64,000 bases of DNA from Branchiostoma floridae (lineage: Eukaryota > Chordata > Leptocardii > Amphioxiformes > Branchiostomatidae). Under the pieces are notes generated by a model. That model saw only the letters and a list, made by a program, of their open reading frames with translations. It was not told the DNA's origin and searched no databases. Shown here piece by piece: positions 3,951-57,700 of this stretch (position 1 is the first letter of the stretch; each line of letters begins with the position of its first letter). The translations under genes and the position numbers were made by a program. The DNA lies in the NCBI RefSeq assembly GCF_000003815.2, contig NC_049988.1, positions 7,874,698 through 7,938,697 of the forward strand, given 5' to 3'.

Positions 3951-3990
3951 TCCACATGTACGAAGGACCATTGGGTCAAAACGTGTTTTA

Positions 3991-5490: not shown

Positions 5491-5820
5491 TGCGCTATCT
5501 AAATTCGTCTTAAAATTCATGGGCACGTTTAGATAAGTAGCAGATTGCTCTACAAGCCGTAAGGCAGCCGATTTTAGACCAGGCTGAACTTGGCCGCCCA
5601 ATTGGGTCTATTATTTGTCGTTGATATAATACTTTCTGTTATCATTAATGTTTACATATACATATATCGGTAATAATAGACAATATCTAGCAGTTTTGAT
5701 ATCCATTTAAGCTTTTAAAGGAAATTAGGAATTTTTGAATGGGATGCTACGTTTTGTCTAATGACGAATCGGCGGCCGGATCGGCGGCTACCAATCGGCG
5801 GCCATCTTCAGCCTGGTGTA

Positions 5821-6215: not shown

Positions 6216-6252
6216 AAACACGTTTTGACCCAATGGTCCATCGTACACATGG

Positions 6253-7825
6253 GCTACGTTCGCGCCAGGCCTGCTTCGCGCGTTTTCAGTTTAGATATAA
6301 ACAAACAAGAGCTAGAACTCTTCAGTATGAAGTAACGAATTGAGACTAGATACATATAGAAGGAGAAGCGTACAATAAACGTTATCCAAACAGCAATTAA
6401 TGGTTTCAGTAATTCAATGTCTATGATTTTACGAAAAGGTGCAAAAAAATTAGCCTGATCGCTCGGAATTTCTAATTACAACAAGCAGAACGTGTCTATA
6501 TTTCAGCAATGCCGACTGACCCCATGCATATGCATGTTCCCACTTTTTATAAACCACCGTCGTTTGAGCTTTACTATAGTAGTTACCAGCTTTTCTCATG
6601 TGTGGTTTTATCTCAGATGAAACATCGTTAACGTTGTTTCATTCAATATTCACGCCTAGGGCAGATCTAGAAATGTTCAGTCAGTGAGTGTGGCCGCCGT
6701 TCTTCCACCATGAATCAGTCTTTTACTGAATCTTAGCATTTTGCGACAAACGCTCACCACGCACGGTGGAAATCGGTGGCAAAAATAATTTATGCCCTCC
6801 CCCCTACTCCGCAAAACAAAAAATTAAAATCTTACTCACTGGTTCGCAGATGACCCATGCAGCTTCGTAGTCCCACACTTTCTTTGGTCACAAATGGCCG
6901 TAGTATTATCCCTCTGTACCCCAATGGTGGACTTTAGAACAGAAATTCTCCACCATAGTTCAAGTCGACTAGCTTCTGCGTGTGTCCCTCCAGTTACGCG
7001 CCAGTTTTTGTCCCATATGGATGGTCTAGTCCCCAGGGGGGAGACATAAACAGACAAGACAGGAAGAGGGCGGCCCGGACCTACTCTCCAAGCAGAGGCT
7101 AGGCTCCGGCTGTTTGTGAAGTTTTGTTACTCGTTTATATCGGGCTTTCTATATTGTACTTTTTCTTGATGTCTCCCGGCCTATTGTTTAGTCACATAGA
7201 AATTCCAAGCTACACGGTGCATAAAGAACAGATGTAAAATTTATTAAGTTTCTGACATCTTGCATCGGTTTACGCACATGCTCCTACATGTACGTGACCT
7301 GTGTCAGACGTCAGGTTGAAGAACTTGACAAATTATGTATCTGTTGAAGAAGTTGCATGAATAAGAGAAACTGCCACTATAACGTTTGACTTCATTACAT
7401 ACTTTTTTCTGAAATAAAAGATGTCCGTGTTTCATTTAAAAAAACGGCTCGCCCATGCTTGCAGTGAAGTAACCAAAGCTCGATATTCTGTTCAGACACG
7501 CTTCCGACTGTTTTTCTCGTTGAATAGTTGCTTTTTAGTGGTGTTGGGACAATCAATCCAACGACAGAAGAGAAACGAAAACCACACGTTATTTTCATGT
7601 GCCAAAAATGAACCCGTCAGTCTTCTGCCGCGTTGCCGATTTTGAAAGAACGTTCCGGAAAATCTTGCGGCGCCCGTATGTGTTTAACCGTAGTGATTCA
7701 GTTTGGAAGCAAACGTGGCCATAAACGTCTTTACTAATCCGTGTATCGTACATTTCTGCGATCTTGTGGATATGATTGTATTGTAAGAATTCAGAGGGGC
7801 GAGTAAGAACAGAAAGAAACAAACA
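6253..7825. other. Gene-free stretch with a MITE end
   Basis: Only a solo MITE end (CTCTCCAAGCAGAGG, about 7084-7098) is recognisable. The short open frames look non-coding. Confidence 0.4.
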
Positions 7826-37300: not shown

Positions 37301-40300
37301 CCATACTTGGGCTATGATTTGAAGTAAGCAAGATTACAATGGTTAAAGTAGCCTTGAGTAGAACATGTAAAAGGCTTGATCCCTAGCTAATGAATCATAT
37401 CATGGCTGATATAGCTCATAACCCTGCACCTTGCAAGCCCTTTACAAAATGCATGACTTTATTAAAACCTGCACAAGGTGACCACATCTGTAAACCGGTA
37501 AGGACCACCTGGCAATTGTGACCACTTTTCGGTGGTCCATTATATATATTTCTATATTGCCTATCTATAATGAGCACAGATTTTATCAGTATGATCTGTT
37601 GGGGCAGTTTTGTTGCAATAAAAAAACAAGCAGACTGAAAAAAATTTTCTGGAGCAAAAATGGTTTAGACTGCCGTCTGTCAAATGTATAAGCATATCTT
37701 ATAATTTTGTTTCATAAAAGTATTTTGAGGTTATAATTCAAAATTGGTAGTTGGTAAAATCAAGGTCTGTTTTGATGATAAGAGGTTGAATGCTTTAGGC
37801 TAAGTGCAATGGGCTGCTACAGTTCGGGTGGCAGGGGAGGAGCGACACCCGACATAAATCAAGTCAATGTAGGTGTGAATGAAATAAAGCCTGTTGTTGT
37901 TGACTTTGTTGTTGACTTTGTTGTTGCTGTTGTTGTTGACCATTTCTATATGTTCTTCTGCAGGAAGAGAGCCCGTGCGCCCCCGCCACCCCCGGCAAGG
38001 AAACCCCACGCCAAAATGAATGGCAACATGAACGGAAATGTGAACGGAAATGTCCGTCCCAGCATTAACGGTATGGGACCCGGGAAAGAGAACAGTCACA
38101 TGACCAATGAGAATGTGGACCCTGTGCAGGAGCTGGATGGGTTCGTTGACCTGGATGTGATTTTACCTGGAGGAGAGGTCAAGACAACAAAGTTTATGGC
38201 AAGGTAAAATCACTTAATGCCCACTGTAAAGGAATTTCGCTTGCTAGTGTCTTGATGCTTTTCTTGACAAAGTAAAGAGTTCTGATGTCAAAATTATCTA
38301 AAATAGGGATAAAACAATGTAATGAGTGTTGCAAAAGTTCCCTTCAGAAGTATATCAAACTATTTTACACCTGCATTTCAAAGTGTGCAGAGTAAAGGAG
38401 GTACATATATGCATGTATTAGAAAATTGCTAGTTTACTGACCAGTTTTTTCTGAAACGGTTCTTACAATAATGTAAATTTGTTCAAGAAGAGGGAAGAGC
38501 TCTGTAGTTTTGGATAGAATATATTTTTTTTCACAATTCTACTTTAAGTTATTTATCAAAACTGAGTGCATTTAGCCCATGTTGGGCATCGATATGCAAT
38601 AAAGATCATTGTCATTGTCAATAAACGATTTACAAACACTTACCAAGTGCTTTTATTTTCCCTCCTGTAGCACACATATGATGGACCTACTAGTCCAGAT
38701 ATGTGCCAAATACAAGCGACAGTACCCCGGCCTCAGCCCCTCCTCCCATACCATGGTCATCCCTCCCACCGAGGAAGGGGAGGTCATCACCTACATGCCC
38801 AGCACTCCCATTGGCCGTCTTCCCGACGTGACGCAAGTCGTGGTCAGGCCGAAGAACGAAGTCGTCAGCGAGGATCGTGACAGATGGAAACCTGTACAAC
38901 CAAAAGTACCGAGTGCACCAGAGGTGAGGGATACGTTAATGACCCACTTTTTGTAGATGTTGCTGTGACATTCGGCCTGGCTAGTGATCTATAGCCACCT
39001 AATAAACCACCGAGTGAGCTTTGCTCAGTGTTGTAAATAATGTAGAGATGCAGTGCAGTTATGGTGCAATGATTTTACACATGTAGGGATTGGGAGTCTG
39101 AGAGCATGCAGTTTAGTTATCCTTTTCACAATATAGGTAGCACCCTCAATGTCTTTCATGAAAGTTTGTAGAAGAATGTAGATTCTGAAGCTTCATTGGC
39201 ACACAAAAAACAATGACTTTCAGTCAACTGCAAAATAACATTGGCCCCATAAAGCACCTCATTTCCACTCATGTTCAACCAAGTTTGGAAAATGTCAAAA
39301 GAATTATTCTGCATATATTGCAACAGCAGACAGATGTTTATATATGATAGTTCCTGAGGAATGTGATATTTTTCTTTATCACTGCGGATCCCAGATATTG
39401 ATTTTTGTGTTAGGGAAAACATTATTGCTGTGGTTTCATTTACATATCAAAGGAAGGAAATATTGATGTGTTATTTGGTATCAAAAATATCACCATCATA
39501 ATGATATTAGTCATGCTGACTTCAAAGAAGGTAGAGGTTGTTTTATTCAGTTGAGAAAAAATTAGTGTAGAATTTGTCCTTCTTGAGTGTGTTAATTTGT
39601 AGATATGCCTGCTAATAGTCAGATATCAATGGAAAGATGATGTGTGATTAACAAGCCTGCTACGGTAGTCATTTAGCATAAAACAAAACTGGTATTTGTT
39701 ATGGGGTTAAAAATGGCCACCATCTAGACTGGGTCTGAAGAAGTCTACATTCAACACGTTCCTGTTTTTCATTTTTCCAGAGAACGTTTCGACTGATCGT
39801 GAACCTTCCCATGAACCAGAAGACGTTTGTGCGAGTGAGTCGTAAGCTGACCATCGCCGAGCTGTACCCTGTCATCTGTGAGAAGTGTAACATGGACCCT
39901 GCGCGCTTCGCTCTGCGAGAGGTGGACAAACCTGACGTAGTTCTGGACACAAACTGGACAATAGATGATTATAACATGGCGGAAGTACTGGTGGTAGATA
40001 CCAGACCAGGTAAATAACGAATGTGTACATATGGCTTAAAGCTTTACCAACGTTTTGTCTACTAACTAATGCTATGTATTTGTGTATGGATTATCCCATT
40101 ACACAAAAAGGCAACATTGTAAGGTACCTTACTAAATACAAGTAGAAATACCTTAGTAAGATATTCCATTTGAAAGGATGTTATTTTGGTATATACTTGA
40201 ACCCATATGAAAAGGTGATACCTTATTACATTAATTCATACATAACACTAACAGTCTGAAATGTAACATTGGCATCCAGTCCCACCACAAACATAAAGGT

Positions 40301-43300
40301 CCATCCCCTTTTCAGTTTGCAAGACATAAACCTATAGTATATAAAACAGCAAACCACCTGCTGACAAACATTAATTTCCTTTGGGGACAATAAACAGTAT
40401 GCTACTCTAAGCTCCAATTTACCAAAGAATACAGTCTTTATGCTGTATTTACATGGGACTAGTTGACTCTATGATTCTAGATTACACGAAACTCTTATGT
40501 CAAACTTGTTCTCTATGCATGGTAGGTGCCTTTGAGATAACAGAATTGCAGGTGCATTAGAATGCCTGTATGCATGTGACTTCAGGAATGCATGCTCATT
40601 CATAGCCCTACTGTACACTATCTTCAAGACTCATACAAGGACTTTCTATCTTGAAGATGCCTGTCTTTCCAGCTATCTTCAGGCCATTTTAACTGTAACA
40701 GTAAATGCTTCTCTCTCTGTCTCCAAGACCTTCCTCTTCCCTCCTTCCATGCTGTGGGAAGTGATACCAACTATGAAGGTACTAACATCACTTCCCTCTC
40801 ATCTGTCCTTAAGCCTATGTCACAATTCAAGCAAATGACGGACAGATTTTTAGATCGGCTTGAGCTTGCCATATTTGAAAATCGCCCGACCGTCATCCAA
40901 ATTTTTTGTTGAAAGTCTTCACTGTCACAAGTTGGAATGAACATTTGGTGTCATCCTGAAAAGTTCAAGTTATTGTCCTTTCTACCTTTTTGATACACAG
41001 ATGTTTACACGGATGTTTAAATCCTAATGGACAATGCCCAAAGCCTTGGTAATTGCCGGAATGTTGGCAATACTTCGGCTGAAAATGCCCATTTGGAGCT
41101 TGCCCACAAGTCGGCCAAGCTCTGTTCTTGATTTGTGATGGTGGCTTTACTGTTGTCAAAGTCCTGTGTGTAACAGCAGAACTTCTCTGTTTGTCCTATA
41201 GTGATGGTGACTTCTCTGCATGAGTTGGCTTGATTTCATTGCTGGTTACAGTACATGCATGCAAGAGTCCATGTAGATTTCACAGTATTTTTAGAATATT
41301 TTGTGTGTGATCCAACATATGGAAGGTACAGTCTATCTTCATCTACTGGCTTGTTATAATATCCAAACATAGATTGATTAAAACAGCACCTGCACACTTT
41401 ATAGTTACTAACTTCTCTCTTCCAGCTCTGACTGTCTTGCTTCTGTTCTGTAGTTGTTAGATCTTGTCACTCTAGCCTGGCGTCACCCGTAGGCTTAGAC
41501 TTCTTACCCGACACACCGGAAAACAAGAGAAGGGTCTGGTGCCCATGGCTGCCCAGACGGAGGAAAAAGGGCAGCTTTTCTTCAAGTGGTACTGACTCCC
41601 ACCTAGCTGTTCCTGTGACGTGGACCCTGCATGCGATGTTCCCGTCTATTCAGATCTAAGATATGGAGGGCTTGAAGATATGAGCTATGAAATACCCTTT
41701 CCCTCACTATGCTTCATTTTTCTTAAGCGTCCTTGCCCTTGCAGTTCCAGGGAATTGTTCCTAAAATATAAAACACCATCTATGTGGTTACAAGATAAGT
41801 TAGGGTCCTTGTCCTTTGACCTATGAACATGCACACTTGGATCTGTGAATTTCTTCCTTGCGATTCATTCTTTCTAAGTTCTAGCCTGGTCCACTTTGAG
41901 CTCCTTTGGGCAGCATGAAACAGTCTGAACTTGTAAAAGTCTATGACTCTTTTCTTTTGAAACTACCTTCCAAAGAATAATTGATTTCTCTTCTTGTAGG
42001 AGGAGACCCAAGATTTCAACCCTCTCCGTACAAGTCCCCGGTGAGACCCGTGTCTGCGTACAACGACGAAGTGGCCGCGTACAAACCCGCTCCACTGGAA
42101 AAGTCGCAGTCCATGACCTCCCTCGGCTTCAAGGACAAAGTGAAGAAGTCCCTCTTTAGCTTCGGTGCCTTCAAGAATAAGAGGAAGTTCAAATTCGTAA
42201 GTACACAATTGACTATCAAGAAATTAGTAGCTTTAAGGGTGAGGAAGTACATTTTTCCACAGTTCATCAATAACAAGGTGTACACAAAATGGTTATGTTA
42301 TACATTTTGTACCTGGAGCTTTTTAACCACTGCTATATGTATTGACTTGAAGCTTGAGCAGACTTGCTTTTTTTGCTTGTGGTGGACAGTCTATGGGGTT
42401 ATGGCTAGCATTCTTGTCTCTCCGGCTTCTTATAGCAACCTTCAACTTAGCCTTAAGATGTTTGAGTCCAATTTAGTGCAAATTAGCTGGACAAGTCAAG
42501 GAAGTTTCTCAAGGCCTGTGCAAATGCTACATTGGTACCAACTACTCAGATATTAAATTTTGTGGCAGATTGAAAATAAAGACTTGAATTGAGAAAACCG
42601 CAAGTTTTGAAAACACTGCCGAATTTACCAGTTAAGGAAAAGCCCTTAGAAGGAATGAAAAGAGTTAGGAAACCCTAACTTTGCTACAACAACTAAAGCA
42701 TAACCATACATGTAGCTACTGATGCTTACATTAATCTTGTGGAAGAATTTGCTATTCACTGTGTTATTTTGCACTTGCACACTGTACGCCTGTTTTGCAT
42801 ATTTGCACAACATTTGATTTGCATGTTGCACTGATTGCTTGCTTAATCCTATGAGCGTAATTGCTAACAGCATTTCACTGCACCACTGAATCTTAGCTGT
42901 GCACCCTTACCTCTCTAACGCAGGGTGAAGACGGTGGTTCTTACACAGGGGAGGTGGAGTATAAGGTGATTATAAGAACGAATCATCTCATCATCCAATC
43001 TGGAAAACTATGTGATTTGTATTCACCATTAATGTGCAGGGACTGTGACATCAAAGTTATAGTATAGAAGGAGACTATGTGAATTTGTGTACTGTGTACA
43101 AAAGCACATACAATCTCTTTCTATCACAGTACTGTAACTTCAGTGTCATAATCAACAACTAAACTATGCAGAATATTTCTTTGTACCAGTGAAATATTTT
43201 GCATGAATGATTTCTAATGTCTCTGCAGGTTATGGTGAGTACATATCTCTGTGTGTGTCTATGTGTGCCCACTAAGATGGATTTTGTTCATGCTTGGTCC

Positions 43301-46300
43301 TTTTATGAGGAGTGTACAGTATATGAAAGAAAAAGGTGGATGTTTTAGATACATATGTCAGGGTGGAGAATAAAAATGTTCCTCAAAGTTTGTAATCTCT
43401 GTTAAATATAATAGGATCCCAAGGGACCGAAAATGTCACATGAGTCCATCTTAAGTGTGTGTTGTCTGTTTGTGTTGATGTTTACTGTACCATTTTGTAG
43501 CCCGGATTTAAGAGTAGGAGATCAACAGTTTCTGGAGAAATTCCCTATCAGGTGAACCTCCATTATATCAGGTGGCACTTAGGTATAGGGTTGAGTTTAG
43601 TCAATGGCTTAGTATAATAGTAACACTCTCCTTAACCTGTACTAACTGGTCACGTAACAGTTACATTCATGGCCAAGCTTGACAGTATTGTAGATTAAGG
43701 TACATTGTAATGGAAGGTGTTTTGGTTCGATGGAACTTAGATGCAAGTTAGATGGTGCATGGAGGTTGAAAGACGATTTTTAACCCCTTAATAGATTGTT
43801 ATGTAAAGATGTTGTCAACCTTGTATTAACAGGTCAAATTTCTGACTGCTTCCTCAAAACATTTTCGATGGAATGTTCCGGAAATAATTATAATATAATA
43901 TACAGCAAACTGGTGACACAGTGCAAATAGCTCAGGATATGCCATGCATCTAAATCCAGTGCCTTCAAATCGTGGCAAACATAGAGTTTTTTATGTACTG
44001 GATCTCTATGGTGTTCATTTGGTGTTCCTAATAGCTGTTTCAACAGGGTATACTTTGAAACTGTGGTCTGTATGGTGCTCTTAATACATTTCCAGTAATC
44101 TTAAGAAATGGAATGACCCAAAGTTTATTCTTTCACAGCTTGGAGACTCCGCATCACAGTCATCTTCCAACCAGTACGCTCGGTCCACCAGTTTCCCTTC
44201 TACTACCCAGTCGCCCCCCTCCCCCACACGCAGCCTCCCGCAGACACCCCCTCAGCGATCCCCCCCTTCTCAAGCGCCCAGCCCCCCTGTAGAGGCTGTA
44301 GAGAGGCGGAAGAAGAGACCCCCACCCCCTCCTCCCGGTGCGTCCAAGCCTGGCGCGGACTGGAGGCATTCGTACGCGGGCGGAGATACCACGCTGGAGA
44401 GAAACAGGAGGAAACCTGCACCGAGGCCGCCCCAGACTGCAGCCATGGAGGCACCTTATCGTGCTGCAGAGGCCAGCCCAACCAGGGAAACAGACAGTCA
44501 GGCATCTTCTCCTGGTGCTGAGGCCAGCATCGAGTTTAATTCAGGTGGGTGATAGAAGATGATATGGTCAATGATTTTACACATTAAGACTAGAGATGGA
44601 GGAAAATGATGAATAATTTATTCTATTTCAGCTTAAGTTCAATAGTTTTGTTGCATTGTATTTATCTGTCAATTCTCTTGATGTGTATAAACCTTTTTCA
44701 GAATCCCATCAAATTTCTAAGCCTTTTTATTTCAGACAGTAACCTTAATGATGTCCCTTTTTAAACACAAGGCAGTGCACCTGTAGTAAGAAAAGTTCCC
44801 CTTCCCCCAGGTGAAAGTCTGACCCTACCGAGGTCCAAGCGACGAGCCCCACCCCCTCCCCCTGGTACCAGGTCCCCTGAGGTGGTCGATGGAGACATGT
44901 ACCAGGATGACATCAACATCAGAGGTGATGTACATGTACATAACTGTTACAGTGTCTTTGCCCTTAAAGGAGCAAAAACTGGGTTCACACGTGCGTATAC
45001 ATTTAGGTCTGTATGAGGTCCGTTTTGAAATTCTTAGCCTCTACCAGGCTCCACAGGTTGCTGAATAAATGGTAATTGAAGAAACATAGACACATAACGT
45101 GCCAGAGAAGTTAGCTGTCTGAGGTGCTAACTCCGCTGTTATCTGGCTGTATTTGTCCAATCTCTATTATTTTTCCAGTGATCTATGGAGCCTGGTATGG
45201 ACTAAGACTTCCATACAGGCCTCGTAGGGACTTGAATATATACACACCTGTGACCCCACCTTAAGGCTATGTATTGTGTATGCTCTAAGTGCTTCTATAT
45301 AGTGAAAAAGACAGAAAAATGTCTCTGACACATGGACTGTCACAGCTTATAATTGGTGAGTGTTGTATGGTCTGTTCACATAGGAGACTTTAATGATGCA
45401 TTTCTAACACGTTTCATCCCCTACTTCCACACCACAGGATACAACACTTTGCCAACGAAGCCCCCTCGCCCCATGAGCTACGCTGCCCCTGGTGACCTCA
45501 GCCTGGAATACCGGCCTGCTTCCTTCGACATCCCGCCGCCTCCAGACATCCCGCCCCCCGACGTGCCCCCCTCCCCATCACCCCGGGAGGAGGAGGAGAA
45601 GATGGAGGATGTAGAGGAGGATGAGGATGAGGCTGTTGCCATGTTGACTGCTCCATCAGAGTTTGGAGGGGCATCCTCGGCAGGCAGTAAGTCTGACTCT
45701 ACAAAATTCTAACTCTTATACAGTATATTTCTTACCAAGTGTGTTTTTAACCTCCTTGTTCTTACATAAGCCATTTTGTAAGCCTCCGGTCTATTTTTCT
45801 ATCCTTTTTGTAACTGAAAAATTGGAAAGGAGATAGAGGGATGAGTTTGATATATATATATTACCTTGAAGTTTTAAGAAAAGCTATTTAGATAAGTTGA
45901 TAGCCTCTTATCTATGCAGTAAACCTTATTGTTTGTCAAATAACTATGTTCGGAATTGTGTATATCAGTCAAAACTTAATTTTGTCACTTGGAGATCTAT
46001 GTCGACATTCTTTAAGACATTTCTGAAGCTGAAGAAACTGTACTCTATTTTTCTTTGTCCTCTTGCATGTATTATGTGATTTGTCCCATGTTTCTGTACC
46101 TGTATACATGCATGGTAGAGTTGTTTCTCCAAGTGCAGGTTTCTTGTAGATATCATCATCTATGCATGGAAGTATGCAATGGAAAATATGTTGCACGATT
46201 TTTATGGTACCGACCATGGTTTGGGTAAGTTGAAAGCATCTTGAAATGCTATTGATCTTAAGTGCATATTGATGCGTAATTCGGACAAAGGGTGTCAGAC

Positions 46301-49300
46301 ACTTGCAGTATTGTATTTTAGATAAGTTTTGAGAATGGAGATGTTCGTGTATATGTAAGTTTGGTGTATATCATTAAGCCATATATTGGAAATCAACAGC
46401 TTGTATGGCAACTAGAGTTAAGAATCATATGAATAGGTTTGTTTGGCTGTCTGTCTATAAATTGCTACCCTGGTTTTTCCACACTTGCTTTGCGATATCA
46501 GTTTTTGCTTGCTTTCTGCATGCATTCCAACATACTAAAAATGTAACGTCATCTGTTACTTAAAACCTCACCCTTATAGCTGCTTTGGGACCCAGGAGAA
46601 TGATGGGTAATCTGTGCTCATTCCTCAATCCCTTCATGCTTTGCAGGCTGGTTCACCGAATGGGACGAGGATTATAGTGACCTCTCGGACACGGAAAGCA
46701 CCGGCAGCTTTCCCGACGACGTTGAAGTCTTCAACCCAATCATATTAAAACCAGTATTCATGAGAACAACCTCTGAAGAAGAGGCTTAAGTGATAGTAGT
46801 TCCCATGATCCTCTCTCACCCCATTCTCTGACTGGCAGCCTCAGTTCCCATGATTCTCCTGTGGATCCGTCTCCTGAGCATGCACCCATGTTGAGTTTCT
46901 GTACAACTAAACTTCTTTTGTTTCAGGATTTTTCCTGTTCGCTCTTCGTTTAATCATACCAAGTTTCTTCTTTGCAGCTGTTTACCCTACTCAGCATTCC
47001 ATTTCAGCAATGTTGTCTACAGTCGACTGACTAAGAAGCTATCTTATCTCAGATTCTCCCCGCTTTTTTGCTGTACTGTTGTCTTTACCAGGTAGAATTC
47101 ATTCTCTAGTTTGATCCAGACCTGCAGGCCTGCTTGAGTAGAAGGTTGCAAATCTTTTAGGAGGAGGTTATCAATACCTAAATCTTTGAGTGTTATTCTG
47201 TTTAGTTAGTTTTTTTAGTTTGGCAGACATTTTTTGTCAAAGCAAGCATTCAAGATTTTAAAAAGGGATTGAACCATTGGCAAAGGCCCCCAGGACCATA
47301 TTTTATTAATGCAATTTGGCACTTATTTTTACACAATGTTGCAGAAGGCTAAAACTTTTTTGAAAGTATTTTTTAATGAAAGTTACATTTTCATTTGTCT
47401 CTTTCTTTCTCCCTTTTTTTTTACATCTTTTAGTGCCATAAGTGATAATGATTATGAGACAACCTCCTCCTACATGAGTTGTGTACACCCTGCTGCATGG
47501 AGTTACTACCTGATGATTGACAGATGCTTGTCACAGCTGATTGGTCGACATCTTAGGCATCTTGATGACTACTTTTGCATGATTACCTGTTAATATGCAT
47601 GATTGCTTGATAATGACTTCCACAATATTAATCAGATAATCATTGAATGCAATATTGATAGATTTCTGATTCAGGAAAACTGTCATGTTTTCCTTTTACC
47701 TGTAATATCAAGTATGAAGTTTTATTGCTGGGCGGAAGTTTGGTTGTCAAAATTACTTTTAAGTTAAAGAATTGGTACACTTGTCATTTCAAATTTGTTG
47801 AAGAAAGGGTTTTAACTCAACAAATTATTTATATTGGGCTTTATGAATTTATATATTGTACCATAATGATGCCGATCTACTGTACCAAAAACATCAAAAA
47901 ACAATTGAAATACTTTGATTTTGCTTCCTACTATACTTGCTGTTATGGAGTGTACATGAGGGCATATAGCTTGGTTGAGCATTGGATGGCAGGTGTCATG
48001 CCTTGCATCTTAATCATAGTTTGTAGTATCCATACTTGGTTGACTTCTGCATGTTCAACTATCTACATATGATTATAGATACTATATATAGATTTTTCAT
48101 ATTTTAGCATCTTGCCTCGGATGTACCTGCCTGCTGTCATACTGCCTGCTGTTTTCAGGCTGTTTATACCATTAGTCCATGCCTGTCATCTTGTTGCAAT
48201 CCCCTTCACTATGAACCCCTCTACCCAAGCTAATATCCCATATACAGTTGTATTCGTAATGAGCTTGCTTTACAAAGCCAAAGGTGCTCTAGGGAAATTA
48301 ACTTGTAGGTATCTTCTATAAGACTGCAAAAACATACTGTAGTTTGGTGCAGTAAATGAAACGAGTTGAACTATGCAAGCATAAGTGTTCTGTATGCCTA
48401 AACTTATGGGAATTATAGAAATTATAAAAATACTCGACTATAGATGTATAGAACAGGCCTTAAAAAGTTATCACAATGCAAGGTATATTTTCCAATCTGA
48501 AAGTATAGTGTAGTAATAGTATAGAAGAACATAGCACCACCTAAAAGATGGGAATGTCAGTGAATGAAGTACATGTACCCACGCAGTGAATATAATAGGA
48601 GGATTTTGTAAGATCATAATCAGCGACAGAATTTTGTGTAATACTAAGAATTGTTGAATTTCGCGAAAGCAAGACGAGATATTGCAGATCTGCTTAGTAT
48701 AACTATATTTAGTAGGGGTGGGCAATTGCAATGCATTAAGTTATATTTGGTATACTGGGTAATACATGCATGTTGATATTTATATACATGCTGATATTCA
48801 TATATATGTAGAGGTAGGGAACAAATTAAAGACTCCTAATATAACTCCAAATACTAGTCATATGTAATAAACAATTTCAAAGACATTTTTCTTCTACTTG
48901 ATTCTTCCTTTCACTAGAGTTGAAGTTAGAATCATACATTTACTTACTGTTTTGTCAATTCAATTAGTGTGACCTCTATTGTTTCTTTAGATTGATCAGT
49001 ATTACAAAAAAGCCATTATCTCTCCATTGAATTAAGATATAACAATCTCCCAAATCACCATATTCAAATCACCATATATTTTGTAATCATTGTGTTATTT
49101 GGGTTCCGGAAGTTCATTTCTATAATTTACTGTCATTGTTGCAATTTTTGATGTCATCAAAGATTTTAAAGTCCTTTAGATTGAAAGAACATTCAACAAA
49201 AGCATGATGATTATCAGATCGAGGTTCTGAAAGTCTGAGAGATTCCTGGGGTCATTGTTGGCGTGGGAAAAAAGGGCACAGGTGTGTCTCAGTGAACAAC

Positions 49301-52300
49301 ACTTCCGCTGCTCCTTTAGGTGTTAAAGGTGACAACCCACCTGTCTGAACTGGGATGAACTGTCACAATTATCATGCCGGAAAAACAGGTTTTATCAAAG
49401 GTCACTAACTACAGGTGTAGGTATCATGGATAGTGTTATTTGGTTTGAAGTCAGGACAATTAGATCTAAGACATTTGGCTGGGATTATAGGATATATAGA
49501 ATGACTAGACATTATAGGATATAGTCGAGGGTATTTGAAAGAATGTGGCTAAATTATGCTAGCTCATTTGATCAAACTTGTCCTTGAAACTTGAAAGATT
49601 GTTTTTGCGACATACATGTAGAATAAAGACTTAAGACCTGTGAACACTCTCCATCATTATCTTTATTTTTGATTTTTTGCGTGTTCAATTGCTGTCTGTC
49701 CAAACAGATTTAACTAGCACGTAGACATAAAATCCAGAAAAATGGCTCTCTTTTCATACTACCAATTTAAGCTTCCCATTCTTTCAAATAAAAGCCAACT
49801 GAACTTTGTCAACTCCCTTCAATAAGTGGCATGAAACGATGCCGCCATCTTAGACAGGTGTTGAAATCACTTCATGACAGCACTGTAAAGACACTGAAGG
49901 ACACTGTCTCTCGAGGCAGTTTGTGACAGAAACAGGGAGCTAGGAAAACGTAAGGTCTTTGCCTCTGAATATCTGCTGGGAGATTACAAAGTCTGACTGG
50001 GAATGGAGCCCAGGCCCAACAGCTGAGAGCAGACAGTACAACTGCAGGGTAATACATTAGAATGAGTTTTGTTGGCATGGAAAGGTATTTACCTTTTTGC
50101 TGGGGCTGCCGAACGTTAACTTGCTAATTGTTAACTAGCAGCACTGACCAGCGCATATTGTGTTTGGCTGTGCCTGGTGATTTAAAAGATTCATCAAGCT
50201 CAAAACAGTGTTTGTGGAAGCCTTTCTTGTGCTTAACAGGGTGACTCTTTTTCTCTTAGGAAGAATATGAGATGTGTTTTAAGTGGAGAAATTTGTCTTC
50301 ATTTGCATGGTTGAAATGTATGAAAGATGCTGTGGCCTGATGTTTTAGGCTCAACTTTTATCAATTACTAGTACCATGCTGACTTACCACTGCCAGTTTA
50401 AAGGCATGGGGTCAACTTCAGCATGCAGTTTTGAAAGATAATTTCAGTTGATGTGTTGCCTTTGAGATATGAGAATGAGCTAGAAGTTACATCAGTCCTT
50501 CCAGAATGAACTGTTTACTGACTGGTATGTTACTTTTCCTTCCAGCTTCGGAAGCCACCACCACACGAGCAGAGGAGGCGATAGATGTGGCAGAAGTGAA
50601 CATTGATGCAGACTTCAAGGAAGAAGACAATGTGGCATCCATGTCTTTTGGTGCAGAGAAGGCAGAATCAGACAGTGGGGATGACTCAGATGACACAGGA
50701 TTTGTCACTGTGAGCACAGTCCAATCAGATGACAGGAAAACTTCTGACCAATCAGCAAGCTCCTATTCTGACCAATCGGCTGTCAACATCTCTGACCAAT
50801 CAGAGGACACAAAGATAACTGTGGAGTCTCATGCTGACCAATCAAGAGATGTGAAGCTGTATGAAGAGTCAGCAGGTTCCTATCTTGACCAACCAGCTGT
50901 CAATACCTCTGACCAATCAGAGTCCACTCAATCAGATCCATTAGAGTTGGAATACCTTACACAGATGGTGGACAGTTTGACGGAAGGTTTTAGCTCTGAT
51001 GACTCTCCAAGTGTGAGTCACGGAAGTGGCCAGTTGGACTTGAAAGAAATAACTGAAGAGACACGTGTTGAGGAATCTCATGCTTTGTCCCAGCCAGAGA
51101 CTCTTGAAGTTGCTCCAAATGTAGCTAATGAATCAGATGATGCAGAGCTTTCTTCACTAACTGAAAGTAGTGAGGAGAAAGTTGGAGTAGGTCGGGCAGA
51201 TTCCCCATCAATTAGCTCCCTATCTAGCCTATCAGAATCCAACACAACACCTGACCAATCACAGCAAAAGTCGCCAGAAGTTAGCAACCAATCAAGAGAG
51301 GTTATTCCAAATGGACATGTGGCTGGTGACCAATCAAAGGTATCGGTAGAAGTGAACCAATCAAACGAGGCTGTTTCAAATGGTCAGACAATGTACGGCC
51401 AATCAGAAGAAAGGGAAGACAATAGCGTACCAGACTCTGAGGAAGTAGTGCTAAGAGAGAAGAAAGGACCACAGCAAGTGCGTGTTCGCTCTTTTATCGA
51501 AGCTGAACACGAGGAAAAGAAAATGTCCTCTCCTTCCCACCACATCGTAAGCCTGGAGGGGTCAGTACGTGGGTTCAAAGGTCATGTGAAATCAAGAGTT
51601 GTAGACATAGACTTTGATAAAGAAGGGGAAGAAACTGAGAAAGCAGAAGAAGAAGAGACAGCCATTGAAGAGAGTAGACCATTACAGCAAACAGTCGAAC
51701 ACAGTGTACAAAAAGCTAGAGATGATGAGAGAGAACCTTTAAGAGATGTTCGTAAAGATTCTAGAGACGAAGGAAAGGGACAGGAGGAGAAAAAGCCTGA
51801 AACGAAGAGTTTTGTTAGTTTGAGTAACATCAAGTTTGCTCACAAGCCTGACAGGTCTTCGATCGGACTCACCAATTTCCAAGTTCTTCCAGACAATGCC
51901 ATCCCCGTGGAGAGGGTGGTTAGAAAACGTAGTACATCGGTCGATAAAGCCCCTGAGCCACAGGTTCAAAAGTCAGATTCTTCTGTTAAATCAGGACCAG
52001 TGGAAGTACAGAGGGCAGTAAGTCCTATAAATAAAGCCGGACCTCACGTAGACATGACAAAGCTGCGCGAGCAGATGCACAAAGATAAATCTGTTGAGGA
52101 CTCACAGGAAGGTGGAACAGGTTCCCAGGAACCCCCTGCAGAGCCTAAGCCAGAAAAGGAAGTAATAGTGTTCCCTCACACGGGTGAGCCTATCATAAAA
52201 ACCGAGACTGTACGCAGAAACACTGCAGCGGAGAAGAGAGCGGTATATTTCTCGGCCCCGCGGCCGTTCAGTAGGTCGTTTGACAAGGAAGAAAAGGACG

Positions 52301-54725
52301 CTTCAAAAGAGGAGACGAAAGCCCACAAGCCAGCCCCACCTATGAGAAGCGACAGCTTCTCCAAAAGTTCCATGCACAAATCCCCTCCGTTTACCCCAAG
52401 CTACCACAAAGTGACTTCTCCGACCCCTCCCCAGGGGATATCAGCGTACCATGCTGTCCACCCTCCCCACCCCCTCAAGCCATCCTCACCCCCCAATGTT
52501 GCCTCCTCCCCTGAGGTGGAACCAAGGCCTCCGTGGGCAGTGGCAAACTCCGCCGCGCCGCCCGATGTTAGGATTAAACCAGCCTTTATCGTCCCCCCTC
52601 CCCACCCTATCAAACCCACCCCACCTGACACAACACAGGAGGACGGGTCCCGGAGACAAGGCTTCTACGCCTTTGGTGCGAAACTCAGGCCAGCTTCTGC
52701 CAACTACTCCTCCCACTTTGCTACGGAGACGCAGAGTACGGCCTCTGTGTTCAAGACGAAGTATCGCCCGAGGTCGGAGTACCTTGAGACGGTGAAGCCG
52801 GTAGATCCGGACGACGAGAGTTTCAGTCCAGCGGCCGCTGCGGGCTTGAGACCGGCATCGGAGCGGAGGCTGAAGCCGCTGCCAAAGAAGCAACCCGACA
52901 ACCCACACGAGCAACTCATGACGGCGATACGCGGCGTAGAAGCTACCGTTAAACTGCGGAAGGTAAAGACCCTCTTTTTGCATCTTAACTATTGTTCTTA
53001 CTAAGGCCTACAAACATCATCTTTTACATTACTGAGATGTTGTGATTTGTTTTATGTTGAAGGGTATCTGTGGAAGGGTATGAATGGAGAAGTAAGGAAA
53101 TCTGCCATGTGTTTTGCAACTTTTGAACATTTTCAGGTAGCCCAACCTCAGACCAACAAAGTTGTGTATGGCCGTGTCATTGAGAAATCGGAGCATGACG
53201 CTATAGATCGTTCCGATGAGGCACCACCGAGACCGCCTTCTCCTGTCGACTATGAGCGTCCAACAGGGGTAAAGAATGAATCTCCCCTGGTGGGAGGCTT
53301 GTTTGTGGTGCTGTGGGGATAGATAATGAATCTCCCCTGGTGCTGGTGGTGACAATGTTGCTGGAAAAACCACACAGCAAATGTCTTCTTCACTGCTGCT
53401 GATTGACAACATCATTCTGTTCAACATGGAAAAGTTTCTGTGTCTGGCAATAAAGAAATTCATAGTGACATACTTCTCAAATAAATCTGACATACCATAT
53501 CTTACATCTGCTTTTCGGTCCCATCGTTATTTGTAATCCAATTTTTGTCATTCAAGTGAGTGTCATTGTACAATGTATCTCTGCTTTGTTGATTTTCATA
53601 TTGAAGAAAGAAAGAAAGAAAAAGAAAGAACAGATTCTGAAGTTTCTTTGTCCAACCATTATTCATTAGCAGACTACTTTTCCAACTTGAATGGAACTGA
53701 TATGCAGCTGCCAATATTGTATGGTTTCAGCTCTACTAATGCCATTCCTTCAGAGTTTCAGGGTTTATTATAAATCTTACTGTTGGTGCACCAAACAATG
53801 CAGAGATGGCTGATTCACATTACACTGTTACTGACCCACATTGCCTATGTCACTGCACTAACAGCATGAGTATGTACTGTTCCGCACATTACTGTGTGAT
53901 ACCAAACAACTGTCTATTGTAAGAACGACGATGGCTGGCTAAAGGTAGATGAGCTTAACACACAGGAAAACATATGTCGTAAATTTCACAAGGTGGGATT
54001 TGAACAAGATTGTGCTGTCATCATATTTACTTGTAATTCTTTATTTGTCAAATACTGTACCTCAACAGTCTATTCTTTTAAGATGTTTCTTGATACTTTT
54101 TACATATTGAATAAAGTTCCTTTCCAATTTTCCAATTAATAGAAAGAGCACTCATTGACTGTTTTTAGACCTAAAAGACCTAAAAGCTTTATGAATAGTA
54201 CACTGTCACACTTTCTGACAAATTTAGAATTCAATTGTCTCCCCTGCCACGGTTTTGTCCTTTTGTTTCTATCCTTCATTCTTTCCAAATTTTGAATGTT
54301 CAGGATTCTGTGTGTTACCGTAGCTCTGTCTACATTTTGCCACCCCTCCCTATGCCTGTGTGTGCTGTGCATGGCAGTACCTCGGCAGTAACCCTGCATG
54401 GCTTGGTGTGTACACCTCTCACTCTCCCCGTGTCCAGGTCTCCAGCCCCGAGCCCGATGTTTCGTTTGGCCGCGTCCTCGACAAACCACCGAGCACTCAC
54501 ACAAACGGTTCCTCCGCTGCCAACGGTAGTAGTGCGCCACCTCCACCACCACCCTCCTCACGACCGCCACCGCCGCCCTACGACCACGCTATGGCGGCCA
54601 AAAGTCGGAGTTCCTCGTCTTCCACCCAAAATTCTGACGATGCAGTAAACGCACGTAGAGCTGCTATGGAGGCCATTAAGGCCGGAAACCTCAATTCACG
54701 GTTAAAAAAGGTGGGAAAACACTAA
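16312..54725 (+). CDS. COBL: Cordon-bleu (COBL) gene, whole coding span
   Basis: Fourteen exons join with matching phases: 16312-16364, 37964-38203, 38671-38923, 39781-40009, 42000-42196, 42924-42965, 43229-43234, 43501-43551, 44139-44544, 44811-44924, 45438-45686, 50546-52962, 53137-53268 and 54438-54725. The product is about 1,558 residues, somewhat longer than vertebrate COBL. Domain order: basic-proline N terminus, two ubiquitin-like folds (about 65-182 and 183-258, the second being the COBL domain), KRAP motifs near 407 and 501, a long acidic and serine-rich middle, and WH2 motifs near 1400-1421 and 1528-1555. COBL binds actin monomers through WH2 and promotes unbranched filaments in neurons and microvilli. 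This is known for vertebrates and inferred here. Vertebrate COBL has three WH2 motifs and COBLL1 has one. Two here would fit a gene predating that duplication. Confidence 0.85.
17116..17278. mobile_element. TA-inserted MITE, degenerate right end
   Basis: The left end ATCTCCAAGCAGATGTT after TA is matched by AACATCTGCTTGCATAT at the right, where the terminal GGAGAT has mutated. Same family as 15552-15778. Confidence 0.55.
17930..18070. mobile_element. Palindromic MITE with a long imperfect stem
   Basis: TTCAAGCAGATGTTGGGTAT opens a foldback: the segment around GTATTATACTAG..GTCTCTTCT (17950-17992) is complementary to AGAAGAGACTTGGG..ATAATAC (18016-18043). Confidence 0.55.
18815..18841. repeat. 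(TAA)n microsatellite
   Basis: About nine uninterrupted TAA units. Confidence 0.95.
19183..19282. other. Assembly gap (100 N)
   Basis: Exactly 100 N. The flanks show no obvious shared sequence. Confidence 1.
19477..21115. mobile_element. Harbinger-like non-autonomous DNA transposon, copy 2
   Basis: Terminal inverted repeats are GGGACCGTACGGCATTTAGC at the left and the near-complement at 21096-21115, flanked by TTA on both sides (19474-19476, 21116-21118), a PIF/Harbinger-type target site. G-rich arrays with GGGGGAGGGCCTAGCAAAAA lie at both ends. The interior 20390-20740 matches 2400-2880. A MITE is nested at 19946-20072. No transposase is present. Confidence 0.75.
19946..20072. mobile_element. 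Complete TA-inserted MITE (CTCTCCAAGCAGAGG family)
   Basis: The ends CTCTCCAAGCAGAGGTCG and its exact complement are flanked by TA on both sides. The arms continue as an imperfect palindrome through CGCAGATATAGTA. This is the intact reference copy for the solo ends at 4598, 7084, 15260 and 24022. Confidence 0.85.
23361..23710. repeat. Self-complementary ACTAGT minisatellite
   Basis: Thirteen copies of ACTAGT occur in 350 bases, mostly within the palindrome GGACTAGTCC, separated by CAAGCCCGTCGCCCCCAGC-like spacers. It lies in COBL intron 1. Confidence 0.9.
24022..24095. mobile_element. Solo end of a CTCTCCAAGCAGAGG MITE
   Basis: TATTCTCCAAGCAGAGGTTG is followed by GAGATATAGTAGTAGTC, matching the left half of the elements at 4596 and 19946. 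Confidence 0.6.
28375..28395. repeat. (TCAC)n microsatellite
   Basis: Five to six tandem TCAC units in intron 1. Confidence 0.9.
29957..30127. mobile_element. pogo/Tigger-like MITE
   Basis: The ends CAGTTACCCCCAGTTAATTG and the partly complementary CAATTAGGCTTCTACTG are flanked by TA. Internal words such as GGATTAACGCACAC and GGATAATTG follow the diverged sub-terminal repeats usual in pogo-class elements. Confidence 0.55.
30164..30316. mobile_element. MITE with 'AGATNTTTGGGGAGG' ends
   Basis: AACAGATATTTGGGGAGGCT at the left faces CCTCCCCAAACATCTGCTTGG at the right, where the outermost bases match the CTCCAAGCAGAT family. Confidence 0.6.
36086..36655. repeat. Tandem array of about 150-bp units, four diverged copies
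   Basis: Units start with TCAAGTTCAAGC or a variant at 36086, 36233, 36385 and 36537, a spacing of 147, 152 and 152 bases. Each contains versions of AGGAGGCCCAAAATCA, ACGTACCAAA and ACAGCGC. Overlapping open frames of 60-114 codons across the array differ in frame between units and are not credible genes. Confidence 0.85.
37803..37945 (+). mobile_element. SINE/LINE 3' end with (TTG)n tail
   Basis: The sequence runs CAATGGGCTGCTACAG..GAATGAAATAAAGCC into tandem GTTGTTGTTGAC. An AATAAA-like end followed by a simple repeat is typical of retroposons. It stops about 20 bases before the COBL exon 2 acceptor. Confidence 0.5.
37964..38203 (+). CDS. COBL: COBL exon 2 (basic-proline motif, start of ubiquitin-like fold 1)
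   Basis: The acceptor TTCTTCTGCAG and donor GTAAAA bound residues 18-98. KRARAPPPPPARK is the N-terminal basic-proline motif of COBL/COBLL1, followed by an Asn-rich linker and LDVILPGGEVKTTKF, the first strands of the ubiquitin-like fold (compare ITVVLPSG and LSVVLPGD in the vertebrate proteins). The exon enters in phase 2 and leaves in phase 2. The ATG at 37809 opens the same frame upstream but lies in intron sequence before a good acceptor. Confidence 0.88.
38576..38626 (+). repeat. Retroposon 3' tail (CATTGT)n
   Basis: GCAATAAAGATCATTGTCAT and a short hexamer tail lie in COBL intron 2, 45 bases before exon 3. Confidence 0.45.
38671..38923 (+). CDS. COBL: COBL exon 3 (rest of ubiquitin-like fold 1)
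   Basis: The acceptor CCTCCTGTAG completes a split Ser codon and gives STHMMDLLVQICAKY, almost the vertebrate SHAMMDLLVELC. MPSTPIGRLPDVTQVVVRPK matches the KPNTLIG..VLLK end of the fold. The donor GAG|GTGAGG leaves phase 0. Residues about 98-182. The exon is GC-richer than its introns. Confidence 0.92.
39781..40009 (+). CDS. COBL: COBL exon 4 (COBL domain, ubiquitin-like fold 2)
   Basis: RTFRLIVNLPMNQKTFVRVS..LYPVICEKCNMDPARF..VLDTNWTIDDYNMAEVLVVD is the COBL domain (Pfam Cobl family), colinear with vertebrate VRLVVNYLRTQK..ILPVICAKCEV..LSKSLNELG. Residues 183-258. The acceptor is TTTTTCCAG and the donor GTAAAT. It ends in phase 1. Confidence 0.93.
41493..41588 (+). CDS. COBL: Candidate 96-nt cassette exon of COBL
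   Basis: Between exons 4 and 5, an open stretch after ACCCGTAG enters in phase 1 and reaches a weak donor GTACTG in phase 1, so it could be included without changing the frame. It would encode LDFLPDTPENKRRVWCPWLP then RRRKKGSFSS. The core resembles the KENKGFFSFFQRSKKK motif that follows the COBL domain in COBLL1. It is GC-rich relative to the surrounding intron. The weak donor and poor pyrimidine tract keep this tentative. Confidence 0.42.
42000..42196 (+). CDS. COBL: COBL exon 5 (basic segment)
   Basis: Residues 259-324. It begins with GGDPRFQPSPYKSPVRP and ends with LGFKDKVKKSLFSFGAFKNK and RKFKF, a Lys/Phe-rich motif comparable to KKKFLGFFKANKR after the COBL domain in vertebrates. The acceptor TTCTTGTAG joins phase 1 from exon 4. 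The donor GTAAGT is strong and leaves phase 0. The open frame runs on into the intron but loses all COBL character. Confidence 0.88.
42924..42965 (+). CDS. COBL: COBL exon 6, 42-nt small exon
   Basis: A pyrimidine tract and AACGCAG precede 14 codons, GEDGGSYTGEVEYK, then a GTGATT donor. The exon is symmetrical, phase 0 to 0, so it can be skipped without a frameshift. Confidence 0.65.
43229..43234 (+). CDS. COBL: COBL exon 7, candidate 6-nt microexon
   Basis: GTTATG (Val-Met) lies between an acceptor TCTCTGCAG, with a branch-like TTCTAAT just upstream, and a consensus donor GTGAGT. Phase 0 to 0. Introns of 263 and 266 bases separate it from exons 6 and 8. Neuronal microexons of this size are known in animals. 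Usage here needs RNA evidence. Confidence 0.5.
43501..43551 (+). CDS. COBL: COBL exon 8, 51-nt small exon
   Basis: The acceptor CCATTTTGTAG is followed by 17 codons, PGFKSRRSTVSGEIPYQ, and donor GTGAAC. Phase 0 to 0. The peptide is basic with a Ser/Thr cluster, a possible phosphorylation site (inference). Confidence 0.7.
44139..44544 (+). CDS. COBL: COBL exon 9 (proline-rich, KRAP-like motif)
   Basis: It runs open from acceptor TTTCACAG to donor GTGGGT. Residues 358-492. SPPSPTRSLPQTPPQRSPP and the KRAP-like ERRKKRPPPPPPGA (about 405-418), then NRRKPAPRPPQ. KRAP motifs bind SH3 domains of syndapins in vertebrate COBL. No Met at its start, so it is missed by ATG-based ORF calls. Ends in phase 1. 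Confidence 0.88.
44811..44924 (+). CDS. COBL: COBL exon 10 (canonical KRAP motif)
   Basis: Residues 493-530. RSKRRAPPPPPG is the classical KRAP motif (vertebrate KKRRAPPPPP). Acceptor CTTCCCCCAG, donor GTGATG, phase 1 to 1. Confidence 0.9.
44981..45261. mobile_element. MITE in COBL intron 10 with GGTCACAGGTGTGTATA-like ends
   Basis: GGGTTCACACGTGCGTATAC at the left is near-complementary to TATATACACACCTGTGACCCC at the right. Same end type as 9282-10871. Confidence 0.6.
45438..45686 (+). CDS. COBL: COBL exon 11 (proline-rich and acidic)
   Basis: Residues 531-613. LPTKPPRPMSYAAP, then PPPPDIPPPDVPPSPSP and an acidic run EEEEKMEDVEEDEDEA. Acceptor CACCACAG, donor GTAAGT, phase 1 to 1. The ATG at 45353 lies upstream of the acceptor and is not the start. 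Confidence 0.88.
46647..46789 (+). CDS. COBL: Candidate alternative last exon of COBL
   Basis: A good acceptor (CCCTTCATGCTTTGCAG) opens a phase-1 frame fitting exon 11: WFTEWDEDYSDLSDTESTG, then FPDDVEVFNPIILKPVF, ending at TAA. No phase-1 donor lies before the stop, so the exon must be terminal or a poison exon. Used as an end it yields about 660 residues with both ubiquitin-like folds and KRAP motifs but no WH2. No poly(A) signal is close by; AATAAA occurs at 48866 and 49622. Confidence 0.55.
46790..50545 (+). other. COBL intron, no further exon recognised
   Basis: AT-rich, with scattered short frames lacking domain features. It may contain the 3' UTR of the alternative last exon at 46647. 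Confidence 0.5.
50546..52962 (+). CDS. COBL: COBL exon 12, large central exon with first WH2
   Basis: 806 codons, open from acceptor TTTTCCTTCCAG (phase 1) to donor GTAAAG (phase 0); residues 614-1419. The first part is acidic and Ser-rich with about a dozen DQS/NQS tripeptides. SSIGLTNFQVLP (about 1050-1062) resembles the conserved KYGLTTYKIVP of vertebrate COBL. Proline-rich SH3-ligand-like sequence follows (KPAPPMRS, PPHPLKPSSPP, PPPHPIKPTPP). The end, PHEQLMTAIRGVEATVKLRK, is a WH2 actin-binding motif with LxxAI and LRK(V) hallmarks. The ATG at 50506 lies upstream of the splice site. Confidence 0.9.
53137..53268 (+). CDS. COBL: COBL exon 13 (post-WH2 linker)
   Basis: GTA after acceptor TTTCAG supplies the Val of the WH2 LRKV. 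The exon encodes VAQPQTNKVVYGRVIEKSE, then an acidic stretch and APPRPPSPVDY. Phase 0 to 0, donor GTAAAG. Residues 1420-1463. VVYGRVIEK recurs as VSFGRVLDK in exon 14. Confidence 0.85.
54438..54725 (+). CDS. COBL: COBL last exon with C-terminal WH2
   Basis: Acceptor CCCGTGTCCAG, phase 0. VSFGRVLDKPP, a Pro run and NARRAAMEAIKAGNLNSRLKK, nearly the vertebrate C-terminal WH2 (VNARQALMDAIRSG..ARLRKV). The frame ends VGKH then TAA, comparable to vertebrate PLLV stop, so I take this as the natural end. AAG|GTGGGA at 54710 could also act as a donor. Residues 1464-1558. Confidence 0.88.
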   Translation, partial: VSSPEPDVSFGRVLDKPPSTHTNGSSAANGSSAPPPPPPSSRPPPPPYDHAMAAKSRSSSSSTQNSDDAVNARRAAMEAIKAGNLNSRLKKVGKH

Positions 54726-57700
54726 ACACAAAAACCTTCACAGGCAATATTTTTAGTAATCTTCAATCTACAACCTTCCTGAACAACTAGTTCCACATTC
54801 TTTTTTTTTTTTACACCATGCAAATTCAGTTTTTGATTTTGAAGAATTGGTGATTCTGTTTAATTTGAATTTTAAGAATTTTCCACGAAAATTTAGCTGA
54901 AAAACAGTTATGACAGAAATTGGTAAGTCTGCATGAAATGTTTTCTGTGATATTGTTCTAGCATAGTTAACATAGTTTCGTGTTGAGTGCACTGTCTTGT
55001 ATATAGTGCCCCTTGCTGCATTGTACTAACATCGGCTGTTCGCAACCTGTTTACATGAACTAACATATAATACTAGGTACTAGTTATTACACTTTGTTGT
55101 CAAATTTTATTGCTAAGCCTAAACAAAACGTGATTTTACAGATAGCATCCACATGGGCTACATTGTACTCAGATGAAGCGTGTCAGATTGTTGTTATAGG
55201 TCCTTTCAAAGTGGGGCAATAGATTTTAATTTATGATTGTCAGGTCACTTGAAAATGAGTGTTTTTTTATTGTATCCATTATTATGTTGCAAATATTAGG
55301 TTTTGCAGGGAATGTCATTTATACAATTCAGTTTGTGTTATCAAATGTGTGTTCAGGTATGGTATCTATGGACAAGGTTGTATCTTCATAAGGTGTAATG
55401 CTATTACCATAACTGTCCATGTCCGGTGTTACGGTACCAGCAAAGCAGACATTCAGCAGCTCATGAACAAGTGAACACTCTTGCACCCCAATACTGCTGT
55501 TTTAGCTCCAAGCAGTTGTGTGGTTTGGTTGGTTTTTGTTGATCTTTTTGTCCATTTTGTATTTCCTTTTACCTTCTTATTCTGTGAAAAGAGAAAATAC
55601 CACTTGCAAGCTATGAGCAAAAAGACATACAAATCTCAACCCAAACCTTACACTTGCCTGAAGTCTAAACCAGCTGATGGACTAGTGAGTGGTGTGTTAA
55701 CCTGTTCATGTTCCATCACAGGTGTCTCCCAGGGAAAACACTTTCCAGGTGTCACCTGTGGACCTGGTGTAGCTGCAGGTGTCACACAGGTGTGCAGCAT
55801 GCACCTGGCCAGGTGAGGACCACACCCACTGGACTGCAGGGCCACTTTCTCCTTTCATGACCATTATGTATTCATTGATTTCAGTAAATATAACAAGATT
55901 TATATTCTGTTATATGCTTGTGTATTTGTAGTGAAGAGTTGTATATACAACGGCTATCACTATAAAGTGTATAAACACAATATCATACCCACTTGGTTAT
56001 AATTGATACTCAATTCAAGCAAGCTGAAGTCACTGTTATACTTGTAAATGTAGTCTCGATAATGAGTATTTTAAACTCAAGATGTGAGCAAATGATTACG
56101 TAAATCGTTAGTTATTTATGCTGCTTTGTAAGTTTTTCTTTTGGGCCACTTTGAATTTCAAGAATGTTATATAATAGCAAGTTTAACCTGTCTAGTACAT
56201 GTGTATATATATGAAGACAGCAGAGAAAAAATTTAATCATTAATTTGTCATCCTTACATAGCAAACCGATTTTTATTAGTAAAGCTTAGCATATATTCGA
56301 ACCATGGAATTTAAAAATATTTGGTTGTAATCCCTATATATTAACTTTCTGTCTTGAAGCACTTTAAAGAATCCTTTGACTTTCAAGGCCTTTACAGAAG
56401 GGATGTTATTCATGCATTAAGAGTAGGAAGGACTCTGCAAATGAAAGTTGTTTTTGGTCCCTACTTGGAGTTTGAATTACAATTTAGGAAGTCAACCAAA
56501 GTCAATGCCATTCTAAAAGAGCAACTGATAAAATATGTACCTTATACCATATAGTAGAGGCATTTACATACAGTTGCTGTTTTGTACGGTGAGCTACTAT
56601 TCAAGTCTTCCTATCATGGTACGTTGTTGTGTTAATTGTTGAATCATGTAGAGGCTATGTAAGTGGTTTAAAGAGAACATGCTTTTAGATTAGAATATCT
56701 AGTCTGGAAGTAGATATTTTTCTAATGTGACAATTGACCTGCTTTCGTTGGAATTACTGGTACATTGTACGTGTATAACTCTATTTCATGATATATATAT
56801 CTTCTAAGAATATAGTTTTTTGGTGTCCCCCATATAGAATCCTAATTTTGATACACTTAGGATGCATGAGGTGTGTGTGAGAATACTGATGTGAGAAAAA
56901 CGTCTTGCCCTGGTGGCAAAGTACAAAATGACAGCATAGGAAAATCTGTCCTCTAGAAAAATTCCTTGATGCCTGGTTCATACTTGTGTAATCAAGGAAT
57001 ATTGGTATAAGTTTTGTTATATGAAAGTATATTCGTACGTAACGTTAACACTGGCAAAAGAGAAAGTTGAAAGAGCAAAGGATCAATTGAAGGTAGATGG
57101 AAAGATAGTTTTGACCAAAAGTTGGAGACACTGTCAGTAACCATGATATGTGATTATGCTTTGAAGAGGTATGTCAGCACTTACACTAACTTTCAAGCAT
57201 TATTAACTTAATAATGACAAGAAATGTTCCCAGCTCATATGAGCTGTGTAAGAATATTGAACACCAAGTTGCTAAAGTTGTTTTGGTCATATACATAATG
57301 TGTTACATGCTTATGGTTTTTTTTCATCTCATTATATCTGTATAATTATACATTATCATATTATCTTATGTAAATATATGAATTATGGTTTGAAAATATA
57401 ATATCTTGCTTGTAGTATAATCAGTGAAGAGTTACAGAAAACATGATTATGGAGAAAAAATTCATATGAGTATGATATAGAAATCGATGCATTTGATAAG
57501 GTCATTAAGTTGTGTAAATACATACATATAACTTTATAGATAAATTAATTTATCTTAATCTTATTGGTTGAACAAGTATTTGATAAGGAAACCAGATTGC
57601 TGTTTGGAAACCTGATATAACCTCTAAAATGCTATACTGCATGTTTGTTGTATCAGTTCATTGTTACCATAGCAACTAAATGTTCCCATAGCAACCTTAA

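Follow-up and report, generated by a model that had tools for sequence, protein, structure and literature searches.

Intron 10 of a lancelet gene that looks like a member of the COBL (cordon-bleu) family contains a candidate exon, beginning at 46647, whose use would replace the WH2-containing end of the protein with a short acidic tail. The leading reading, held tentatively and at somewhat less than an even chance, makes it an alternative last exon for the COBL transcript. As we infer its use, the exon-10 donor (GCA gtaagt) would be spliced to 46647 in place of 50546, translation would run 46 more codons past exon 10 to the stop ending at 46789, and polyadenylation would take place within intron 10, most likely after the AATAAA at 48866. 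The predicted product, 642 residues long when the first modelled exon is taken as its start, would combine the Cobl domain, the lysine/arginine-proline motifs and a 47-residue acidic tail, and would lack exons 11-14 and hence both WH2-like motifs of the normal form. Such a protein could engage the binding partners of its N-terminal half without loading actin.

The gene was modelled as 14 exons on the plus strand (37964-55772), placed by splice sites and phase within the window, the whole 64-kb stretch of DNA analyzed. Once joined, the 14 exons keep an open frame of 1552 residues. The part upstream of intron 10 comprises exon 1 (37964-38203), exon 2 (38671-38923), exon 3 (39781-40009), exon 4 (42000-42196), exon 5 (42924-42965), exon 6 (43229-43234), exon 7 (43501-43551), exon 8 (44139-44544), exon 9 (44811-44924) and exon 10 (45438-45686), whose donor (GGC A gtaagt) leaves its last base, an A, to be carried over into the next exon. 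The numbering of the initial annotation, in which exon 11 is exon 10 here, implies one additional exon farther 5'. In the assembled short-form protein, the Cobl ubiquitin-like domain of Pfam (PF09469) scores 54.8 bits against a cut-off of 25 (E 1.2e-14); it is encoded by exons 2-3, with its bulk in exon 3, and is common to both forms. Schultz and Terhoeven (PMC3849942) report a Cobl domain match in Branchiostoma floridae. Basic-proline (lysine/arginine-proline) motifs, for which the name KRAP comes from the initial annotation, are recognizable by eye in exons 1, 8 and 9. Exon 6 (GTTATG) is an in-frame microexon of 6 nt; its splice sites are good, it lies beside two other short phase-0 exons, 5 and 7, and the short exons of 42924-43551 are possibly a cluster of optional exons.

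The normal form continues from exon 10 into exon 11 (50546-52962), exon 12 (53137-53268), exon 13 (54438-54710) and a likely last coding exon 14 (55722-55772), encoding VSPRENTFQVSPVDLV and a stop, which was picked from several possible acceptors 3' of 54710. The first WH2-like motif, NPHEQLMTAIRGVEATVKLRK, occupies the last 63 nt of exon 11 (52900-52962) and continues with V across the junction to 53137; the second, NARRAAMEAIKAGNLNSRLKK, forms the 3' end of exon 13 (54648-54710) and likewise continues with V across the junction to 55722. Toward its C-terminus, the normal form matches the WH2 region of two solved COBL chains, 4jhd (E 1.6e-6 over the whole sequence, 0.0013 for the best single stretch) and 3tu5 (E 1.3e-5 and 0.00036, respectively), and these matches partly cover a proline-rich linker. 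The second motif matches the last WH2 of COBL, and the first, compared with the COBL WH2 repeats of 4jhd, reaches a whole-sequence E of 0.0008 with non-significant single stretches. The Pfam WH2 model gave no match on the C-terminal pieces searched. Judged by the matches to the solved chains, the normal form appears to carry at least one C-terminal WH2 domain, as the cordon-bleu family requires. Both WH2-like motifs found lie in exons 11-14, downstream of the candidate exon, which bears out the initial proposal that use of this exon would give a form without WH2. Near its start, the 2.4-kb exon 11 also contains a Ser/Asp/Glu-rich stretch with several copies of SDQS- or DQSE-type segments.

Intron 10 spans 4.86 kb, from the end of exon 10 (45686) to exon 11 (50546), and contains a strong 3' splice site at 46647. 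Its acceptor region (46615-46646, plus strand) consists of a CTCAT at -27, a pyrimidine-rich tract and TTTGCAG; no other AG occurs in the 46 nt before the acceptor, and the CTCAT is a possible branch point. The site scores 10.1 in a matrix derived from the 13 acceptors of the gene itself, which score between 4.6 and 12.4 in leave-one-out; of 6764 AG sites scanned on both strands, with 13 exons and the candidate masked, 18 reach this value. At the 45686/46647 junction, the carried A and the first two bases of the exon (46647: GC TGG TTC) form AGC (Ser), which is followed by 46 codons and a TAA (46787-46789, plus strand). The coding part of the candidate exon (46647-46786, plus strand), with the carried A, encodes SWFTEWDEDYSDLSDTESTGSFPDDVEVFNPIILKPVFMRTTSEEEA, of whose 47 residues 13 are D/E and 2 are K/R. 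Position 46789 marks the stop, not an established exon end. The 3' splice site thus lies in phase with exon 10 and looks functional.

No good donor precedes the stop. The five GT sites 5' of it score at most 0.55 in the gene's own donor matrix and 1.25 in a metazoan matrix, compared with 3.98 (in-sample) and 3.73, respectively, for the weakest of the 13 real donors. Leave-one-out scoring with the own matrix gives the two weakest real donors, of exon 4 and exon 10, values of -0.12 and 1.5, so that this matrix alone cannot exclude an internal donor, and the exclusion therefore depends on the metazoan matrix. The GT directly 3' of the stop (TAA GTGATA) scores 3.0 in the own matrix and 0.9 in the metazoan one, and three GC-donor patterns sought in 46600-50545 are absent. 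The lack of a good GT donor before the stop and of these GC patterns led us to reject a rescued in-frame cassette exon. The initial annotation had described an exon that fits the upstream exon in phase, encodes an acidic tail and reaches a stop with no usable donor before it, and the splice-site and frame analysis agrees with it on all of these points.

Past the stop, the first passable donor is CAG GTAGAA (47092-47097, plus strand; last exon base 47091), and it opens a different reading. Used together with 46647, this donor would close a 445-nt internal exon (46647-47091), and used with a second strong acceptor in intron 10 (first exon base 46978, plus strand; score 11.1, with an AG-free zone of only 12 nt) it would close a 114-nt exon (46978-47091). 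Either would be a stop-bearing poison exon that sends the mRNA to decay and tunes the level of COBL while yielding no protein. As a rule, nonsense-mediated decay acts when a splice junction is formed more than about 50 nt 3' of the stop. The stop of the candidate exon sits 302 nt upstream of donor 47091, and the exon from 46978 would reach an in-phase stop after merely 17 codons. The donor itself scores 6.7 in the own matrix, within the in-sample range of the real donors (4.0-11.5, n=13), but the metazoan matrix rates it as weak, at 4.54, with a single one of the 13 real donors lower. Of the 20 strong acceptors in the window, 7 are also followed within 450 nt by a donor of this quality (5 of 18 once 46647 and 46978 are set aside), so that the presence of donor 47091 is no evidence of its use and adds little weight to a poison exon. 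Moreover, a poison exon does not require a protein-like tail. We regard this reading as unlikely, though far from negligible, and favor a last exon over it. The proposal of an alternative last exon therefore stands in part: the in-phase exon is supported by the sequence, while its status as a last exon is favored in the presence of a mediocre donor downstream.

The coding signal of the candidate exon is modest. Its 46 codons score about 8.9 bits, compared with a mean of 18.2 bits for true coding windows (n=1490, scored in-sample), 12% of which fall below the candidate. In real non-exon sequence (both strands, overlapping windows), 108 of 10390 open windows of the same length reach this score, which places the candidate in about the top 1%; the corresponding count is 270 of 10390 when the codon model is built from exons 1-10 alone and 20 of 10390 when it is built from the large exon alone. 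The synonymous-only part of the score is 0.10 bits, a value reached by 2371 of the 10390 open windows and above that of 27% of true coding windows. Codon choice therefore lends no support, and the signal is carried by amino-acid content. Along the exon, codons 1-15, 16-30 and 31-46 contribute 2.4, 6.5 and about -0.1 bits, leaving the last 16 codons without signal.

The site may instead be a decoy, an AG that is rarely or never used and is followed by an open frame through chance. Strong acceptors without a long in-phase frame do occur in the same gene: besides 46978, the acceptor 41426 in another COBL intron scores 12.8, and since the in-phase frame after each of the two is shorter than 30 codons, acceptor strength by itself is weak evidence. 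The equally coding-like open windows counted above belong to the same side of the argument, as does the fact that the candidate was picked after inspection of the sequence, which is why the decoy is kept as a minority reading of some standing, improbable yet the nearest to the last exon. Against it, the combination of features is rare. When the introns, minus the candidate, were dinucleotide-shuffled, a strong acceptor followed in the right phase by 46 or more open codons arose in 61 of 600 sets (12 introns each) and in 564 of 6000 sets (13 introns each). Once the coding score was required as well, the counts fell to 0 of 600 and 0 of 6000, the latter with either of two codon models. Shuffling flattens local composition, and this result therefore overstates the case somewhat. 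Real sequence gives an estimated expectation of about 0.003 for this gene, from some three strong acceptors in its introns (counting 46647), of which 9% would be open and 1% of those coding-like.

The alternative last exon of COBL must also be set against an exon that belongs to the transcript of a nested or overlapping gene. Read from 46647, a second frame stays open over 33 codons, and the phase fit with exon 10 could therefore be accidental. The frame that fits exon 10 is both the longest and the most coding-like of the three, with about 8.8 bits compared with 1.2 (33 codons) and -3.2 (9 codons), and 45000-51000 contains no Rfam match. We consider a transcript other than COBL very improbable. 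The absence of any Rfam family at gathering score in this same interval led to the rejection of a structured RNA, and a tRNA search of the 64-kb window returned none. A repeat origin was likewise rejected: blastn of intron 10 against the window (E 1e-3, low-complexity filter on) gives no match elsewhere, and the tail matches the assembly (513 Mb, 431 contigs) just once. Three short tandem repeats occur in 45400-50600. Elsewhere in the window, two repetitive open frames with a CVLSERAVCSQ-type unit lie on opposite strands (3939-4350, plus; 5747-6285, minus) and are probably a repeat rather than genes.

The tail itself has no recognizable relative in the collections searched. It matches no Pfam family at E values up to 10, and its best match in the PDB, at E 1.8, is not significant. 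Translated pattern scans of viral genome contigs (6 matches) and prokaryotic genome contigs (134 matches) confirmed no relative, these collections being uninformative for a lancelet. A duplicated exon was rejected as its source, no internal duplication being detected, because the alignment of the tail with the rest of the protein (score 29) falls below the shuffle mean of 32.8, and 260 of 300 shuffles reach 29. By eye, the TEWDEDY of the tail resembles the acidic-tryptophan motifs that bind Arp2/3; in cortactin, the DDW motif places a tryptophan beside acidic residues and binds Arp2/3 (PMC5675706). A bolder reading would have the alternative exon replace the WH2 end with an Arp2/3-binding-like acidic tryptophan tail (TEWDEDYSD), as in cortactin and the WASP proteins. 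We give this version very little credence, less than any other reading considered here. If it were true, one gene would provide both a WH2 monomer-loader and an Arp2/3 recruiter with the same membrane-targeting N-terminus, chosen by 3'-end selection.

For a last exon, intron 10 would have to supply a transcript end. The first AATAAA past the alternative stop lies 2.1 kb downstream (48866-48871, plus strand) and is followed by T-rich sequence at 20-60 nt, making it the candidate poly(A) signal. Ranked by the T or T+G content of the 40 nt from +20, among the 64 AATAAA/ATTAAA sites in the window, it stands joint 3rd by T and 5th by T+G. The AATAAA at 58161, the first past the modelled normal stop (2.4 kb), likewise precedes T-rich sequence and ranks 6th by T and 4th by T+G. 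Within intron 10, the AATAAA at 49622 ties with 48866 on downstream T, and several hexamers lie nearer the alternative stop: an ATTAAA at 48825 (34th by T, 58th by T+G) and the variants ACTAAA (46906), AATGAA (47375), AAGAAA (47801), AGTAAA (48351) and TATAAA (48423). Because of this tie and of the weaker variants closer to the stop, the hexamers do not fix the 3' end.

In mammals, the N-terminal region of COBL is reported to bind membranes, syndapin I, Abp1 and calmodulin (PMC4559358). By analogy, a form without WH2 could occupy the same N-terminal sites without loading actin. The suggestion in the initial annotation that the short form may act as a natural antagonist or scaffold is an inference of this kind, since it draws on the reported partners of the mammalian N-terminal half alone. 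Among the matches listed in the literature search, titles and abstract openings make no mention of a natural WH2-less COBL isoform, nor of any amphioxus COBL isoform. If the exon is used, a cordon-bleu gene of a pre-vertebrate lineage would already use RNA processing to separate the targeting half of its product from the actin-binding half, and the short form would be a natural test of the N-terminal half acting alone.

Set beside known systems, the candidate falls into an ordinary class. Isoforms made by alternative last exons and intronic polyadenylation are widely described (PMC5928244), and as in these (composite terminal exons excluded), an intronic 3' splice site would lead to a new tail, a stop, a poly(A) site and a C-terminal truncation. 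The candidate differs from them in being known here from genomic signals alone. Since alternative last exons commonly truncate proteins, the interest lies in the gene, not in the kind of event; a truncated lancelet COBL isoform is a well-formed prediction of an ordinary kind. With poison exons coupled to nonsense-mediated decay, the candidate has in common an in-frame stop in an alternative exon and a possible downstream donor at 47091. It differs from them in lacking a good donor close to the stop, in the 445-nt exon that would be needed from 46647, and in a tail that looks protein-like. With vertebrate COBL and COBLL1, the lancelet gene has in common the Cobl domain (PF09469) and the C-terminal match to the WH2 region (4jhd, 3tu5). 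It differs from them in its two WH2-like motifs, compared with three WH2 domains in COBL and one in COBLL1 by the counts of PMC3849942. The same paper describes a single WH2 in non-vertebrate members, as shown for arthropods, oyster and Drosophila, and places the origin of the extra WH2 domains after the vertebrate duplication. The second WH2-like motif of the lancelet gene would call this single-WH2 view of non-vertebrates into question.
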